Assembly: GCA_041486365.1 (NCBI GenBank)
Contig: JBGPLH010000097.1
Span: forward strand, 1 to 10,047
Length of the DNA: 10,047 nucleotides
Direction of reading: 5' to 3'
Origin: JBGPLH01 sp041486365 [NCBI: Thermodesulfobacteriota bacterium]
GTDB taxonomy: Bacteria > JAUYMQ01
Shown: positions 1,227 through 9,216 of the stretch, in pieces
Layout: every line of letters starts with the position of its first letter
Position numbering within the stretch: position 1 is the first letter of the stretch
Program-made: the position numbers and the translations under genes
Notes under the pieces: generated by a model
The model's input: only the letters and a program-made list of their open reading frames with translations
Told to the model about the DNA's origin: nothing
Database searches by the model: none

Positions 1227-1232
1227 GCCGCG

Positions 1233-1270
1233 GGCCCGGGTGGTTCCCGGGCCGGCTTTGGCAAGCCGGC
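1233..1270 (+). other. Two overlapping, mutually exclusive hairpins after mraZ
   Basis: Directly after the mraZ stop, arms 1233-1240 and 1246-1253 (GGCCCGGG/CCCGGGCC) form an 8-bp stem with a 5-nt loop. The second stem, 1251-1258 with 1263-1270 (GCCGGCTT/AAGCCGGC), is also 8 bp with a 4-nt loop, and shares bases 1251-1253 with the first. It also shares 1267-1270 with the next palindrome (1267-1289). The structures therefore compete along the RNA. No T run follows, so termination is not indicated; pausing, partial termination or mRNA processing between mraZ and the rest of the operon are possible. Confidence 0.55.
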
Positions 1271-1340
1271 CCTCGCGCAGCGAGGGCCGACAAAGAGGGA
1301 CCCGAGGTCCCTCGCGCAGCGAGGGCCGACTAAAGAGGGA
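1267..1340 (+). repeat. Two-unit palindromic (REP-like) repeat, 39-bp period
   Basis: The string CCCTCGCGCAGCGAGGGCCG begins at 1270 and again at 1309, each followed by AC(T)AAAGAGGGA. The two units therefore match over about 31 bases with one inserted T, and start 39 bp apart. Each unit is a palindrome: CCCTCGC/GCGAGGG around a GCA loop, extended to a 10-bp stem (1267-1276 with 1280-1289) in the first copy and 7 bp in the second. The last part of the second unit (AAAGAGGGA) forms part of the purine-rich ribosome binding region of the STAS gene. Related units lie in ftsI at 4869-4930. The form resembles REP/BIME intergenic repeats, but the family is not one I can name. Confidence 0.75.
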
Positions 1341-1348
1341 AGGGACGC

Positions 1349-1699
1349 ATGGACCCGAGCGTGTCAATGATCGAGGTGTCCGGCGAGATCGACCGGAGGC
1401 TGATGCGGGAGCTCTGCGCGCTGATCGCGTCGCTCATCGACGAGAACCGAACGCGCGTGGTGCTGGACTTCTCCCGGGTGGAGCACCTGCACTATCAGGG
1501 GATCGCGCTGCTGGCCGAGCGATCCAGGCAGCTGCGGAGCTTCGGCGGCGATCTGCGGATCGTCGGCGTGAGCCCCTATGTCCGGGACATCTTCCGCGCG
1601 GTGGACGCGGAGAGGTCCTTCCAGCTCCGCGGTCCCTTCGGAGACGTCGCAGGAACGCATCCCCTCCCGATCGAGGCGCACGGGGCGCCGGGCCCGTAA
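1349..1699 (+). CDS. Small STAS-domain protein (anti-sigma-factor antagonist-like), lacking the phospho-acceptor Ser
   Basis: This 116-residue protein is essentially one STAS domain (about residues 5-95): an opening strand ending in GEID, a strand reading TRVVLDFSRVEHL, the conserved Gly of the signature loop (G51), and RSFGGDLRIVGVSPYVRDIF, typical of the SpoIIAA/RsbV-like fold. In phospho-regulated members the loop before that Gly reads D-S-S/T-G; here it reads H48-Y49-Q50-G51, so there is no serine or threonine to phosphorylate. It probably works by protein-protein binding without the kinase switch, or is a structural STAS like those in transport complexes. The ATG at 1349 follows GAGGGAAGGG (1335-1344), a good ribosome binding site. 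It sits between mraZ and rsmH, which are usually adjacent, and is 52 bp from rsmH, so it is very likely co-transcribed. The partner is unknown. Confidence 0.8.
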   Translation: MDPSVSMIEVSGEIDRRLMRELCALIASLIDENRTRVVLDFSRVEHLHYQGIALLAERSRQLRSFGGDLRIVGVSPYVRDIFRAVDAERSFQLRGPFGDVAGTHPLPIEAHGAPGP

Positions 1700-1739
1700 G
1701 CGGGCCGGGGACGGCGAGGCCCGCCCGCCGGACGTGATC

Positions 1740-1746
1740 GGGGGAG
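1740..1746 (+). promoter_or_regulatory. Ribosome binding site that fixes the rsmH start
   Basis: GGGGGAG lies five bases before ATG 1752. The rsmH frame stays open upstream into the STAS gene, to an ATG at 1578, but only the ATG at 1752 has this site, and it gives the family's N-terminus. Confidence 0.6.
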
Positions 1747-1751
1747 CATCG

Positions 1752-2699
1752 ATGCCGTCCGAACACCGGCCGGTACTGCTGGAGGAAACCCTGGACGCTC
1801 TCAGGTGTCAGTCCGGCCGGCTGTACGTGGATGCCACGGTGGGCGCCGGGGGACACGCCCGCGGGATCCTGGAACGAAGCGCCCCGGACGGCCGCCTGAT
1901 CGGCGCCGACCAGGATCCCCGCGCTCTGGCCCGTGCGGAGGAGCGCCTGGCCCCCTTCGCCGGACGCTTCGAGCTCCTCCATGCGAATTTCCGGGATCTC
2001 CCGGGCCTGCTGCGCGCCCGTGGCGCGGTCCCCGTCGACGGCGTCCTCCTCGATCTCGGGATCTCCTCCGACCAGCTGGCCGACCCGGAACGGGGGTTCT
2101 CCTTCCAGCGGCCGGGCCCGCTCGACATGCGCATGGACCCGCGGGCACCGCGCCGGGCGGCCGATCTCGTGAACACCCTCGACGAGCGATCGCTCGCCCG
2201 AATGATCCGCGATCTCGGCGAGGAGCCGCGCGCCGCGCGCATCGCCCGCGCCATCGTGGGGGCGCGGGAGGAGGCGCCGATAGCGACGACCGATCGCCTC
2301 GCCCGCATCGTGGAGGAAGCCGCGCCCCGGCGGCGCGACGCGGCCGCGATCCACCCGGCCACCCGCACCTTCCAGGCCCTGCGCATGGCCGTGAATGACG
2401 AGCTGGGCGCGCTGAACGCGGCTCTGGACGGCTTTCTCGAATGCCTCGCCCCCGGCGGCCGGCTCGTCGTGATCGCGTTCCACAGCCTCGAGGACCGGAT
2501 GGTGAAGCGGCGGCTGCAGAGCTGGGCGGGGACGTGCACATGCCCCCCGGGCCTCCCCCTGTGCGGCTGCGGCGCGCGGGCCCGCGTCCGAATCGTCACG
2601 CGCCGGGCGGTGAAGTCGGGCCCCGCGGAGCTCGCCACCAACCCGCGGGCGCGGAGCGCGCGGCTAAGGACGGGAGAACGGCTCCGGGAGGCGGCGTGA
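1752..2699 (+). CDS. rsmH: 16S rRNA m4C1402 N4-methyltransferase RsmH (MraW)
   Basis: The 315-residue protein has the usual length. It methylates N4 of C1402 in the 16S rRNA decoding centre using S-adenosylmethionine. Visible family motifs in order: HRPVLLEE near the N-terminus; the SAM-binding loop D27-ATVGAGGH35; IGADQDP; D101-LGISSDQL with RGFSF and GPLDMRMD; FQALRMAVNDEL; F243-HSLED248; and the C-terminal NPRARSARLR. A CxC-x6-CxC cluster (C262, C264, C271, C273) lies before the C-terminal tail, as in many RsmH proteins; metal binding is possible but not shown. The start at 1752 is set by GGGGGAG at 1740-1746. The stop overlaps the ftsL GTG start. In E. coli RsmH also opposes MraZ, so the two may balance each other here. 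Confidence 0.97.
   Translation: MPSEHRPVLLEETLDALRCQSGRLYVDATVGAGGHARGILERSAPDGRLIGADQDPRALARAEERLAPFAGRFELLHANFRDLPGLLRARGAVPVDGVLLDLGISSDQLADPERGFSFQRPGPLDMRMDPRAPRRAADLVNTLDERSLARMIRDLGEEPRAARIARAIVGAREEAPIATTDRLARIVEEAAPRRRDAAAIHPATRTFQALRMAVNDELGALNAALDGFLECLAPGGRLVVIAFHSLEDRMVKRRLQSWAGTCTCPPGLPLCGCGARARVRIVTRRAVKSGPAELATNPRARSARLRTGERLREAA
2686..2691 (+). promoter_or_regulatory. Ribosome binding site supporting the GTG start of ftsL
   Basis: GGGAGG lies four bases before GTG 2696, inside the end of rsmH. It is the evidence for using this GTG, which overlaps the rsmH stop (GTGA), rather than the in-frame GTG ten codons later. Confidence 0.6.
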
Positions 2700-3001
2700 A
2701 GGGAGCGGGCCGGCGCAACGGGCGAGTGTGGCGGCGCCTGAGAACCTTCGGGGCCGCCGCGACCGTGGCCACCGTGCTGACGGGATCGGCGCTGTTCTAC
2801 GTATGGACGCGGCTGCAGGTGGTGAGCTGGGGCTATCGGATCTCCCAGGCCTCGGCGCGTCAGGAGGAGCTTCGCCAGGCGAACCGCGAGCTGCGGATCG
2901 AGGCCGCGAGCCTCCGTTCGCCGGGGCGGATCGAATCGATTGCTCGAAAGGAGCTGGGGCTCGATTACACGCGCCCCGGCCAGGTCTTCGCCGTGAAATG
3001 A
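2696..3001 (+). CDS. ftsL: FtsL-type divisome protein
   Basis: The 101-residue product has the FtsL/DivIC architecture: a basic cytoplasmic N-terminus (residues 2-16, rich in Arg), one membrane segment (about 18-37), a short extracytoplasmic coiled coil (about 46-73), and the end motif SPGRIESIARKELGL seen in this family. FtsL partners with FtsB and FtsQ and activates the FtsW-FtsI septal synthase. Sequence is weakly conserved in this family, so the call rests on topology, the end motif and position between rsmH and ftsI. The start is GTG, overlapping the rsmH stop by four bases (GTGA) with GGGAGG upstream, so translation is probably coupled. Its stop overlaps an ATG (ATGA at 2998-3001) that opens a 26-codon frame. 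Confidence 0.88.
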   Translation: MKGAGRRNGRVWRRLRTFGAAATVATVLTGSALFYVWTRLQVVSWGYRISQASARQEELRQANRELRIEAASLRSPGRIESIARKELGLDYTRPGQVFAVK

Positions 3002-3078
3002 GGCGGCTCGTCGGAGGCCGGCGCGATCGGAGTGAGCGCGCGCCCCGGGTGAGTCCGCCGGTCCGGAAGACGCTATGA
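2998..3078 (+). CDS. Possible 26-codon coupling ORF between ftsL and ftsI
   Basis: The ATG at 2998 overlaps the ftsL stop (ATGA) and the frame ends at TGA 3076-3078, which overlaps the ftsI ATG (ATGA at 3075). The peptide is 26 residues, strongly basic (8 Arg, 1 Lys), beginning MRRLVGGRRDR. It resembles no family I know. Ribosomes finishing ftsL could re-start here and be delivered to ftsI, so the frame may serve coupling rather than encode a useful peptide. It could equally be chance: ATGA overlaps are common in GC-rich DNA, and 73 bp of open frame is not remarkable. It is not the N-terminus of FtsI, which is in another frame. Confidence 0.25.
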   Translation: MRRLVGGRRDRSERAPRVSPPVRKTL

Positions 3079-5186
3079 AGCCGCTCGTCTCCCGCTGGAT
3101 CCGAATCCGCCTGGGTGTCGTCGGCGTGATCTATCTCGCCGCGCTGGCGATGGTCCTTGCACGTGTTTTCAGCCTCCAGGTCCTGGACCGCCCCCGCCTC
3201 GCCCAGCTCGCCGAGAAGCAGCACACCGCCGAGATCCACCTCGCTCCCCGGCGCGGCCCCATCTACGACCGCCGGATGCAGGAACTGGCGGTGAGCCTCG
3301 ACGTCGACTCGATCTACGCGCGACCCGGCGAGATCCGTTCGCAACCCCTCGCCGCCGCGCGTCTGGCCGCCGCCCTGGGCATGGACGAGGACGCGCTCCG
3401 GCGCAGGCTCGAGGGGAAGCGCCCCTTCGTCTGGGTGAAACGCCGGGTGACGCCCGGAGAGGCCGAGGCCGTTCGCACGCTACACCTCGCGGGCGTGGGC
3501 TTCTTCAAGGAGGGGCGGCGCTACTACCCGCACCGGGATCTCGCGGCGCAGGTGCTCGGCTTCGTAGGGATCGACGGGCAGGGGCTGGAGGCGGTGGAGC
3601 GCCGCTTCGACGACGTGCTGCGCGGGAAGGTCGAGATCGTCGTGGCCACGCGCGACGCGCTGCTTCGCCCGATCATGGATCGCGGCGCGCCCGAAGACGA
3701 CGCCGACGCGGGCCACGGCCTGGTGCTCACGATCGACCATGCGATCCAGTACATCGCCGAGACGGAGATCGAGGCGGCCGTCCGCCAGGCGCAGGCCGCC
3801 CACGGTGTCGCGATCGTGATGGAGCCGAGGACGGGCGACGTGCTGGCGATCGCGGAGGCGCCCGGCTTCAACCCGAACGTATACGCCGACTCGCCCGCCG
3901 AGCTCCGCAAGTGCCGCGCCTTCTCGACCACCTTCGAGCCCGGCTCGACCTTCAAGATCTTCGTCGTGGCGGCGGCGCTCGAGTCCGGGGCGATCCGACC
4001 CGCCGACCGCTTCTACTGCGAGAACGGCGCGTACGGATTCGCCGGACGGGTGATCCACGACGTCCATCCCTACGGCTGGCTCGACGTGGCCGACATCGTG
4101 AAGCACTCCTCCAACATCGGTGCCCTCAAGATCGCGGACCGTCTCGGCGCGGACCCCTTCTACCGCTATATTCGTGACTTCGGCTTCGGCGCCCCGAGCG
4201 GGGCCGACTTCCCCGGTGACCTCCCCGGTCTCCTCCCGCCACTCCAGCGCTGGTCGCGGATCACCCAGGGAACCATCGCGTTCGGACAGGGGATTGCAGT
4301 CACGCCGATCCAGATCACCGCCGCCGTGGCGGCCATCGCCAACGGCGGCGTGCTCATGCGTCCCCGGCTCGTCCTGGCGGAGGTTGACGCCCAGGGTCGC
4401 AGGGTGCGGCGCTACGAACCGCAGGCCGTCCGCCGCGTGATATCCGAGGACACCGCCCGGATCGTCACCGGCTTCATGAAGCGGGTGACGGAGAAGGGCG
4501 GAACGGGGGAAGCCGCGCGAACGGCTGGCTACGTCGTGGCGGGAAAGACGGGGACGGCGCAGAAGATCCGGGAAGGGGTCCGCGGCTACTCCTCCAAGCG
4601 GGTAGGCTCCTTCATCGGGTTCGTGCCGGCAGACGACCCCCGGCTCGTGATCAGCGTGATCATCGACGAGCCCAAGGGGATCCCCTACGGCGGAAAGGTG
4701 GCCGCGCCGGCGTTCCGCGGGATCGCGGAGAAGACGCTCACCTACCTGAACGTGCCGCCGCAGCCCCTGCCGCCGGAGGAGATCGAATCCCCCTCGAAGA
4801 AGACCCCGACGCTCGAAGTCGCGGCCCCCCCCGCGCGCAGGGTCCCGGAGCCTCCAGGCGGCCGAACGCCCGTCGCGCAGCGAGGGCCGGCGGAGTCCTA
4901 CGAGCCAGTTCTTGCAAAGCGAGGCCCGACCGCATTGGGGAACCCTCCGCCCCCGGAGACCGCGCCGCCCTCGATCCCCGCCGTGACGCCCGTGGCGCTC
5001 GGAGCGAGGGTCCCGGACTTCGCCGGCATGAGCGTGCGGGAGGCGCTGCAGCTCGCCCAAGGGAACGGCATCACGATCGACATCGAGGGGAGCGGCGTTG
5101 CGGTGAGCCAGAGCGTGCCGGCCGGCGCGCCGGCCGCACCGGGGACGACCGTGAAGGTGGTCTTCTCGTCACCGGAGCGATCATGA
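3075..5186 (+). CDS. ftsI: FtsI/PBP3-type septal peptidoglycan transpeptidase with one PASTA domain
   Basis: This 703-residue class B penicillin-binding protein cross-links septal peptidoglycan. Order: short cytoplasmic end; membrane anchor about residues 12-33; dimerisation domain opening with RRGPIYDRR; transpeptidase domain with S291-TFK294 (catalytic Ser), S345-S-N347 and K491-TGT494; a Pro-rich linker about 562-645; and one PASTA domain from about 646 (VPDFAGMSVREAL) to the end. All three active-site motifs are intact. PASTA modules bind peptidoglycan fragments or beta-lactams in some proteins. It is longer than E. coli FtsI (588 residues) because of the linker and PASTA. ATG 3075 is the only possible start: an in-frame TGA at 3033 and no other start codon between. 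A GGAAGA lies four bases upstream. The linker contains a repeat-derived stretch at 4869-4930. The position after ftsL supports FtsI over elongation PBP2. Confidence 0.95.
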   Translation: MKPLVSRWIRIRLGVVGVIYLAALAMVLARVFSLQVLDRPRLAQLAEKQHTAEIHLAPRRGPIYDRRMQELAVSLDVDSIYARPGEIRSQPLAAARLAAALGMDEDALRRRLEGKRPFVWVKRRVTPGEAEAVRTLHLAGVGFFKEGRRYYPHRDLAAQVLGFVGIDGQGLEAVERRFDDVLRGKVEIVVATRDALLRPIMDRGAPEDDADAGHGLVLTIDHAIQYIAETEIEAAVRQAQAAHGVAIVMEPRTGDVLAIAEAPGFNPNVYADSPAELRKCRAFSTTFEPGSTFKIFVVAAALESGAIRPADRFYCENGAYGFAGRVIHDVHPYGWLDVADIVKHSSNIGALKIADRLGADPFYRYIRDFGFGAPSGADFPGDLPGLLPPLQRWSRITQGTIAFGQGIAVTPIQITAAVAAIANGGVLMRPRLVLAEVDAQGRRVRRYEPQAVRRVISEDTARIVTGFMKRVTEKGGTGEAARTAGYVVAGKTGTAQKIREGVRGYSSKRVGSFIGFVPADDPRLVISVIIDEPKGIPYGGKVAAPAFRGIAEKTLTYLNVPPQPLPPEEIESPSKKTPTLEVAAPPARRVPEPPGGRTPVAQRGPAESYEPVLAKRGPTALGNPPPPETAPPSIPAVTPVALGARVPDFAGMSVREALQLAQGNGITIDIEGSGVAVSQSVPAGAPAAPGTTVKVVFSSPERS
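4869..4930 (+). repeat. Two degenerate units of the 39-bp palindromic repeat inside ftsI
   Basis: TCGCGCAGCGAGGGCCG at 4873-4889 is identical over 17 bases to the repeat units at 1273-1289 and 1312-1328. A second, more diverged unit at 4911-4930 (CTTGCAAAGCGAGGCCCGAC) matches the 20-base consensus at 16 positions. The aligned spacing between the two is 39 bp, the same as in the mraZ-STAS gap. Since 39 is a multiple of three, the protein shows a 13-residue period: V600-AQRGP605 and L613-AKRGP618. The units fall in the Pro-rich linker between transpeptidase and PASTA domains, where extra sequence would be tolerated. Confidence 0.65.
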
Positions 5187-6740: not shown

Positions 6741-8134
6741 CGTCCACCGGGACATCGCGCTTCCCCGTCGCCTGGATGGTCCAGGCGGCGCGGGGCAGGC
6801 TGATCCGGGGCAACGCCGGGGGGATCCTCACGGGCGTGTCCAACGACACGCGCACGATCGCGCCGGGCGAGCTGTACGTGGCCCTGCGCGGCGAGAACTT
6901 CGACGGCCACCGCTTCTGCGCGGAGGCGATCGCGAAGGGAGCGGGGGGCGTGCTGATCGAGAGCGGCGACGCGCGGAAACCGGCTCTCCCGGGCGCGGGA
7001 TGCGTGATCGAGGTGCGCGACACGCTGAAGGCGCTCCAGCGGATCGCTCGCGCGCACCGCCGGCGCTTCGACATCCCGGTGATCGCCATCACCGGATCGA
7101 ACGGCAAGACGAGCACCAAGGAGATGACCGCCGCCATTCTCGGGACGCGGCTCCGGACGCTGAAGACCGAGGGGAACCTGAACAACCTGATCGGGCTCCC
7201 GCTCATGCTGCTCCGTCTCGACGGGATGCACGACGTGGCCGTGCTGGAGCTGGGCATGAACCACCGGGGCGAGATCCGGGCCATGACCCGGATCTGCGAT
7301 CCAACGATCGGCGTCATGACGAACGTGGGCCCGGCTCACATCGAGCACTTCCGGGACGTCGACGACATCGCCCGGGCGAAGGGGGAGCTCTTCCGGACGA
7401 TGCGCCCCGGGACGATCGTCGTGAACGCCGACGACCCCCGCGTGGTGCGGCAGGCCCGCGGGCTCCCGCACCGTCGGCTGAGCTTCGGCGTGAAGCGCCG
7501 GGCCCGGATCCGCGCGGAGCGGATCGCCTCCCGGGGGGTCGAGGGGCAGACGTTCACACTTGTGGCCGGCGGGAAGCGCACCCGCGTCACTCTCCCCGCG
7601 CCGGGGCGCCACAGCGTCTCCAACGCCCTCGCAGCGGCGGGCGCCGCCTTCGCCGTGGGGCTGGGGCCGATGGAGGTGGCCGAGGGGCTGGCCTCCTTCG
7701 AGAATACGAAATGGAGGATGCAGATCATGAAGCTCGGGCGGAACATCATCCTGATCAACGACTGCTACAACGCGAACCCCGCCTCCATGGAGGCCGCGCT
7801 CCGCTCCTTCACCGAGATGAAGGGGGATGCCCGGGGCTTCGCGATCCTGGGCGACATGCTCGAGCTGGGTAGGGAGAGCGAAGCGGCGCACCGCGAGGTG
7901 GGACGCCTCGTGCGTGACCTGGGGATCGAGGTGCTCTTCACCTACGGGAAGGCGGCCGAGGCCATCGCCGACGAGGCGGCCTCGGGCCCGGGCGCGACGG
8001 AGGTCCACCGCGGGCGGAGCCACGCGGACATCGCGGGCCGGCTGAGGGAAATGACGCGCGGGAAGGACTGGATCCTCGTGAAGGGATCACGCGGGATGGA
8101 GATGGAGAAGATCGTCGAGGGGTTCGTCGGCTGA
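6737..8134 (+). CDS. murF: UDP-MurNAc-tripeptide:D-alanyl-D-alanine ligase MurF
   Basis: The 465-residue cytoplasmic ligase joins D-Ala-D-Ala to the UDP-MurNAc-tripeptide with ATP, completing the pentapeptide. The N-terminal domain shows [19 protein letters not shown]; the ATPase domain has the P-loop T119-GSNGKTS126 and [11 protein letters not shown] with [11 protein letters not shown]; the C-terminal domain begins near ND342-CYNANP348-AS, a MurF hallmark, followed by [10 protein letters not shown]. The length fits the family. The start ATG at 6737 overlaps the murE TGA (ATGA) and has no strong Shine-Dalgarno, so translation probably depends on ribosomes finishing murE. The frame is open further upstream inside murE, but the homologous N-terminus fits 6737. 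Its stop shares one base with the mraY start. Confidence 0.97.
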
Positions 8135-9216
8135 TGCTGTACCACCTCCTCTACCCCCTACACGACCAGATCACGCTCTTCAACGTGATCCGGTACCTCT
8201 CCTTCCGGAGCCTGGCTGCGGCGATGACGGCCCTCGTCATCAGCTTCATCTTCGGGCCGATGCTCATCCGCTGGCTCCAGCAGGAACAGATCGGCCAGAC
8301 GATCCGCAATGACGGCCCCAGCCGCCATCTCCAGAAGGCCGGCACGCCCACGATGGGGGGCGCGCTGATCATCGTCGCGGTGACGCTGGCCACGTTGCTC
8401 TGGGTGGAGCTGGACAACATCTACTCCTGGCTCGTGGTGCTGATCATGCTGGGCTACGGGGCCGTGGGATTCGTGGACGACTGGCGAAAGCTGCGGCGGA
8501 AGGACTCGAAGGGGCTCCGCGGCAAGCAGAAGCTGTTCTGGCAGTTCCTTCTGGCCGCGGTCGTGGCGGGCGTGCTGTACGCGCTGCCGGACAACGAGTT
8601 CCGGCCGACGCTCACCGTCCCCTTCTTCAAGAACGTGCAGCCCGACCTCGGGTGGCTGTATATCCCGTTCGTCATGCTCGTGATCGTGGGGGCCTCCAAC
8701 GCGGTGAACCTCACGGACGGGCTGGACGGGCTGGCCATCGGCCCCGTGATCACCTGCATGGTGACCTTCGGGATCCTCACCTACGTGGCGGGGAACGAGA
8801 AGCTCGCCGGCTACCTGCAGGTGCCCTACGTCCCGGGCAGCGGCTCGCTCGTGATCCTCTGTGGCGCCGTGTTCGGGGCGGGGCTCGGGTTCCTCTGGTT
8901 CAACACGTTCCCGGCGCAGGTGTTCATGGGGGACGTGGGGAGCCTCGCGCTGGGAGGCGCGCTCGGCACCGTGGCCGTCGTGACCAAGCAGGAATTCCTG
9001 CTCGCCGTGGCGGGCGGGATCTTCGTCCTGGAGGCGGTGAGCGTGATCCTGCAGGTCGCGAGTTTCCAGTGGACGGGGCGGCGCATCTTCGCCATGGCCC
9101 CCATTCATCACCACTACGAGCTGCGTGGCTGGGCGGAGCCCAAGATCATCGTGCGATTCTGGATCATCTCGATCATCCTGGCGATGGTCGCGCTCTCGTC
9201 CCTGAAGCTCAGGTAG
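8134..9216 (+). CDS. mraY: Phospho-N-acetylmuramoyl-pentapeptide transferase MraY
   Basis: This 360-residue membrane enzyme, the same length as E. coli MraY, transfers phospho-MurNAc-pentapeptide from UDP to undecaprenyl phosphate, making lipid I. Many hydrophobic segments cover most of the chain (about ten in the family). Catalytic and family motifs are intact: [18 protein letters not shown]113-VDDW with D115 and D116; [14 protein letters not shown]267-VGSLALGG; and the His cluster H325-H326-H327 in APIHHHYE. D115, D116 and D267 fall at the same numbers as the essential aspartates of E. coli MraY. The start is set by the one-base overlap with the murF stop (TGATG), and the first residues (MLYHLLYPL) match the family. 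Confidence 0.98.

Follow-up and report, generated by a model that had tools for sequence, protein, structure and literature searches.

How does the same GC-rich palindromic core come to stand both in the spacer between two genes and inside the reading frame of the division gene ftsI? The stretch of DNA analysed here (the window, 10,047 nucleotides) appears from its open frames to hold a division and cell-wall cluster of mraZ, a STAS-domain gene, rsmH, ftsL, ftsI, murE, murF, mraY and murD. Pfam was run on the MraZ, STAS and FtsI products, and the other names are read from the frames. A STAS-domain gene lies between mraZ and rsmH in the window (1349-1699) and at the locus of its best relative (L001, 605-958), which we take to be an addition to the usual cluster order. 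Upstream of mraZ, GTGGGG is repeated three times in direct orientation every 10 bp (438-463); these copies directly follow a sigma-70-like site at 396-425 and presumably resemble the MraZ operator. A perfect 11-bp hairpin at 557-584 also precedes mraZ. Rfam models searched against the whole window at E values up to 1 returned FinP alone, at 555-586, with 22.7 bits against a cut-off of 45.

Table 1. Repeat units, the features that contain them and the unit sequence
Feature	Coordinates	Strand	Description
Spacer unit 1	1267..1291	+	10-bp perfect hairpin 1267-1289, loop GCA, ends in GAC tag (GTC on the other strand); -22.1 kcal/mol
Spacer unit 2	1306..1330	+	Hairpin 1306-1327, then GAC; 39 bp past unit 1; -15.8 kcal/mol
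ftsI unit 1	4868..4891	+	Holds the 17-mer core; one bulged base in its hairpin (4868-4887); GGC replaces the GAC tag; -12.2 kcal/mol
ftsI unit 2	4910..4930	+	6-bp hairpin, weak, with G-U pairs and an AAA loop, followed by the GAC tag; -4.5 kcal/mol
mraZ-STAS spacer	1227..1348	+	122 bp; holds four perfect hairpins of at least 8 bp
ftsI	3075..5186	+	703 aa; PBP dimerisation, transpeptidase and one PASTA domain; long linker
Unit sequence			CTCGCGCAGCGAGGGCCGAC

The core itself is the 17-mer TCGCGCAGCGAGGGCCG, which the original prediction placed at 1273, 1312 and 4873 and which a search of the window finds there exactly. With up to three mismatches, its sole further match is 1267-1283, the self-complement of copy 1. 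The two spacer copies have 22 exact bases in common, beginning 39 bp apart at 1270 and 1309, and past these they also share AAAGAGGGA, shifted by one base. A second, diverged unit had been predicted at the same spacing in ftsI. It lies at 4911-4930, exactly 39 bp on, and shares 16 of 20 bases with the intergenic unit, with which ftsI unit 1 shares 18 of 20. The two ftsI units agree with each other at 14 of 20, and at both positions where unit 1 departs from the intergenic 20-mer, unit 2 carries the intergenic base. The tail common to both spacer units is absent from the ftsI units. The bases between the units are unrelated when the spacer pair is compared with the ftsI pair (5/19 agree), which counts against REP-like elements at both places. 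A copied pair would be expected to bring its middle along, so this mismatch, beside the 18/20 agreement of unit 1, means that the sequences do not support the transfer as a dimer considered in the original prediction.

Folded singly, all four units form hairpins with 3-nt loops. With their tags, the spacer units are hairpins of 22-25 bases, within the 20-40 bp expected of a short REP palindrome, and the ftsI units are weaker. Read on the other strand, the tags are TGTC and AGTC in the spacer and CGCC and GGTC in ftsI, of which TGTC alone (one of four) is a stated variant of CGTC. GTAG, the tag of those REPs that flank a RAYT transposase gene, does not occur beside the units. Two features of the ftsI pair speak against a REP origin. 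Its first unit is without the tag, and the region containing the pair (4860-4935) folds no better than shuffled sequence (z -0.47, 58/200). The four changes in ftsI unit 2 include two in the loop and one that yields a G-U pair. Retention of structure in this unit is nevertheless weak support, because the five inner pairs survive in 11% of random four-change variants (22,607/200,000).

The spacer is structured well beyond its two units. Against its four hairpins of at least 8 bp, 2000 shuffles have none in 1925 cases, one in 73 and two in 2, and a 152-base fold across it has a z score of -4.09. Perfect hairpins are chained at 1233, 1249, 1267 and 1295 (1233-1313), and because the first three have arms in common with adjacent hairpins, mutually exclusive folds are conceivable. 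A consensus scan of 200-1800 for terminators found none in the spacer, and a search with the spacer sequence returned one plasmid match (27 bases, E 0.3).

How far can chance account for these resemblances? Among 400 codon shuffles and 400 Markov-3 windows, 24 and 28 contain a 17-bp repeat whose copies are 200 bp or more apart when one strand is considered, and 38 and 47 when both are, so that overall 6-12% of randomised windows reach one. Far direct repeats of at least 17 bp also occur in 13 of 55 fetched loci of at least 8 kb (GC 36-67%, cut to 10,047 bases), or in 18 of 55 when either strand is counted. Such repeats are therefore common in real DNA, and a single 17-bp match is weak on its own in this 70% GC window. 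These frequencies favour an explanation that combines coincidence with duplication. The linker sequence PV(L)A(Q/K)RGP would have been duplicated in frame as protein-coding sequence, its first copy would by chance match a tandemly duplicated spacer hairpin over 17 GC-rich bases, and the equal spacing would be accidental. The unrelated bases between the units fit this account, and shuffled linker codons not infrequently match the intergenic unit at 14/20 (5064 of 10,040,000 positions).

Other comparisons are harder to reconcile with coincidence. ftsI unit 2 is nearer to the intergenic unit than to its own neighbour, and the ftsI spacing exactly equals that of the spacer pair. When the spacer segment 1262-1340 is compared with the rest of the window, a 17-mer is reached in 3 of 3000 codon shuffles. 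Codon shuffling yields a 16/20 match to the intergenic unit 18 times in 3,526,800 positions, and shuffling confined to the linker codons 125 times in 10,040,000. The two ftsI units together score 34 of 40. The maximum in 1500 codon shuffles is 29 at a spacing of 39 and 32 at spacings of 20-100, and the maxima in 252 fetched loci (2,115,993 bases) are 28 and 31, respectively. The two-unit resemblance exceeds what base and codon composition produce, although these nulls destroy any internal duplication in ftsI and are tests of composition, not of duplication.

The protein sequence bears on the same choice. As the original prediction had it, the units give an in-frame echo, VAQRGP and LAKRGP, 13 residues apart, with the Pfam transpeptidase match (244-551) before it and the PASTA match (645-698) after it. 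The two ftsI units differ at 2, 0 and 5 sites of codon positions 1, 2 and 3, respectively. Such a third-position bias suggests a history at the protein level, and the pattern inclines toward an earlier duplication in frame that was retained as protein, as the combination of coincidence and duplication would have it and against insertion of REP-like DNA. On the other side, the linker is long, at 98 residues compared with 47-84 in relatives, by a crude motif rule that could be applied to 18 of 80 loci. Elsewhere in ftsI, the PASTA-coding end holds a perfect 18-base palindrome, CGGCCGGCGCGCCGGCCG, at 5119-5136.

The 80 relatives are those kept from 85 loci found through peptide patterns in a species collection. 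The best of them, L001, has an FtsI with 61-63% identity, and all others fall below 50%. Its gene order (mraZ-STAS-rsmH-ftsL-ftsI) is that of the window. Its mraZ-STAS spacer measures 36 bp and is without the unit, and its FtsI has 682 residues, 21 fewer than that of the window. If the ftsI stretch were an old protein feature, it should be kept in a relative that is without the repeat. GRTPVAQRGPA of the window does align with GRLPV-HRAPA of this relative, which favours duplication of protein-coding sequence, but 172 of 2000 shuffles reach that score. Realigning the window linker with 13-26 residues removed picks out no single insertion site. The best single gap (609-627) scores 140, gaps over 600-617 reach at most 135 and free alignment gives 152. 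Comparison with the linker of this relative leaves an insertion neither confirmed nor excluded, and its site, if there was one, ambiguous. Weighing both sides, we hold coincidence combined with duplication to be possible, though doubtful.

High copy number in the genome is what defines REP elements. Among 386 genomes, mostly remote from the lineage of the window, the unit with up to two mismatches has 13 matches in 12 genomes compared with 19 for the reversed control, and no genome is rich in it. In G001, the genome of L001 and the sole genome of its phylum in the comparison, the intergenic unit has no matches. The spacer unit with its tail, CGAGGGCCGACAAAG, matches 5 places there with up to two mismatches, compared with 25 for the control, which is no enrichment. 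Both the absence of the intergenic unit from G001 and the lack of enrichment in the 386 genomes count against the REP reading, though neither speaks for the organism of the window itself. The 15-mer TCGCGCAGCGAGGGC has four matches, in 2 of 98 relatives. In viral contigs, the 17-mer is found in seven stretches, two of which (L084 and L087) have CCTCGCGCAGCGAGG, the inner stem of 6 bp. Neither the exact 22-mer nor the spaced pair has a match in viral contigs, and a degenerate pattern of tag plus hairpin matches L087 only. In two Desulfoluna loci (L070 and L074), a CTCGTTCCTCGGG hairpin close to the ftsI cluster is surrounded by long repeats, inverted and of 30 bp in the former, direct and of 54 bp in the latter. 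These are possibly another REP-like family.

The failure to find such a family in the 386 genomes would suit local copying without any mobile element. Replication slippage at the hairpins could have doubled the spacer unit, and short template switches could have copied unit sequence across the 3.6 kb that separate the spacer from ftsI. All known copies lie within one cluster, and the spacer is unusually rich in perfect hairpins, both of which agree with this mechanism. The bases between the units would be expected to travel as well, yet they are unrelated, and we regard local copying as improbable.

A different repeat in G001 also speaks for REP-like elements in both places. Repeated 15-mers in 23 stretches of this genome pointed to TGTCATTGCGAGGAG, which with up to two mismatches occurs at 192 places compared with 4 for the control. 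The full repeat consists of TTGCGAGGAG, a variable hairpin and then GACGAAGCAAT or a near form. A hairpin count in G001 gives 37 in 120,618 bases. The repeat is seen for example in L150-L179; some of its copies lie head to tail 27 bp apart, and opposed pairs about 80 bp apart also occur. Read on the other strand, the repeat is CGTC followed by a hairpin, which is the layout of CGTC REPs in the portion of their description used here (PMC3733652). A literature search by sequence produced no report of it, matching only unrelated plant papers. Its pattern also matches 63 stretches of IMG/VR viral contigs (L180-L242), so a similar repeat is widespread. Three Y1_Tnp matches above the Pfam cut-off occur in G001 contigs C176, C110 and C244 (L147-L149), in open frames of 136, 362 and 340 aa; these could be RAYT or other transposases.

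In both the window units and the G001 repeat, a hairpin is followed by GAC on one and the same strand, loops are short with A as the usual last base, and head-to-tail copies occur. The two differ in their stems and flanks (the G001 flanks are TTGCGAGGAG and GAAGCAAT) and in array period, which is 39 bp compared with 27 bp. A covariance model of the G001 repeat (R2), run on the window with filters off and E values up to 10, gives ten matches, none at the units, and this too counts against the REP reading. The best of these is at 8123-8151, with 9.9 bits and an E value of 0.22. The same model finds 3 places in 21 sources from G001 and L001. That the window units and the G001 repeat are related is only a suggestion.

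Taken together, we judge the chance to be slightly better than even that REP-like palindromic DNA units lie in both the mraZ-STAS spacer and the FtsI linker, partly decayed in the latter. The claim that a mobile or copied REP-like element entered a coding region draws on the two-unit score, the hairpins formed by single units, the long FtsI linker, a relative rich in another REP-like repeat and the known occurrence of REPs in genes. The element would be a GC-rich hairpin with a 3-nt loop and an adjoining GTC tag, and it would have spread as DNA in this lineage; its mobility, like the common descent of the spacer and ftsI units, is what we infer from these resemblances. One head-to-tail pair would have settled in the mraZ-STAS spacer, and its transcript would form strong hairpins. 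These might have an RNA role, for instance in shielding the 3' end of mraZ or adjusting expression of the genes downstream. The FtsI linker would hold two further units in a partly decayed state; there the 39-bp (13-codon) period preserves the frame, and the flexible linker presumably tolerates them.

A stronger version is that an undescribed REP-like family entered the essential division gene ftsI as two in-frame units at the 39-bp period of the array, with the period itself making coding insertions tolerable. This we think somewhat unlikely. If the REP reading is true, a cell-division gene and a poorly sampled lineage would join the genes known with REP-like inserts, and a repeat period divisible by three would be suggested to aid survival in coding sequence. 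If not, the locus shows that a single 17-bp match in 70% GC DNA means little alone.

Known systems provide partial precedents. REPs are found inside genes, often in groups, including dimers or groups that encode 20-30 residues, and elements within coding regions are therefore of a known kind (PMC3733652). In the parts of that account drawn on here, REPs of the CGTC super-family have a tag at one end (CGTC, in many families TGTC or CCTC), loops of 4-5 and stems whose first two positions are A-T pairs. The window units are likewise short palindromes adjoining an unpaired tag, which is TGTC in spacer unit 1, and likewise lie downstream of a coding region and also within a gene. Unlike these REPs, they have loops of 3 nt and G-C outer stem pairs. 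They also form a head-to-tail pair, an arrangement that is negligible among the CGTC families as described there and that counts against a REP origin. Rickettsia palindromic elements, which can be likened to the units by description only, measure 105-146 bp in the portion of the report used here, compared with about 20-25 bp for the units, and they too are palindromic repeats within protein genes (PMC2229807).
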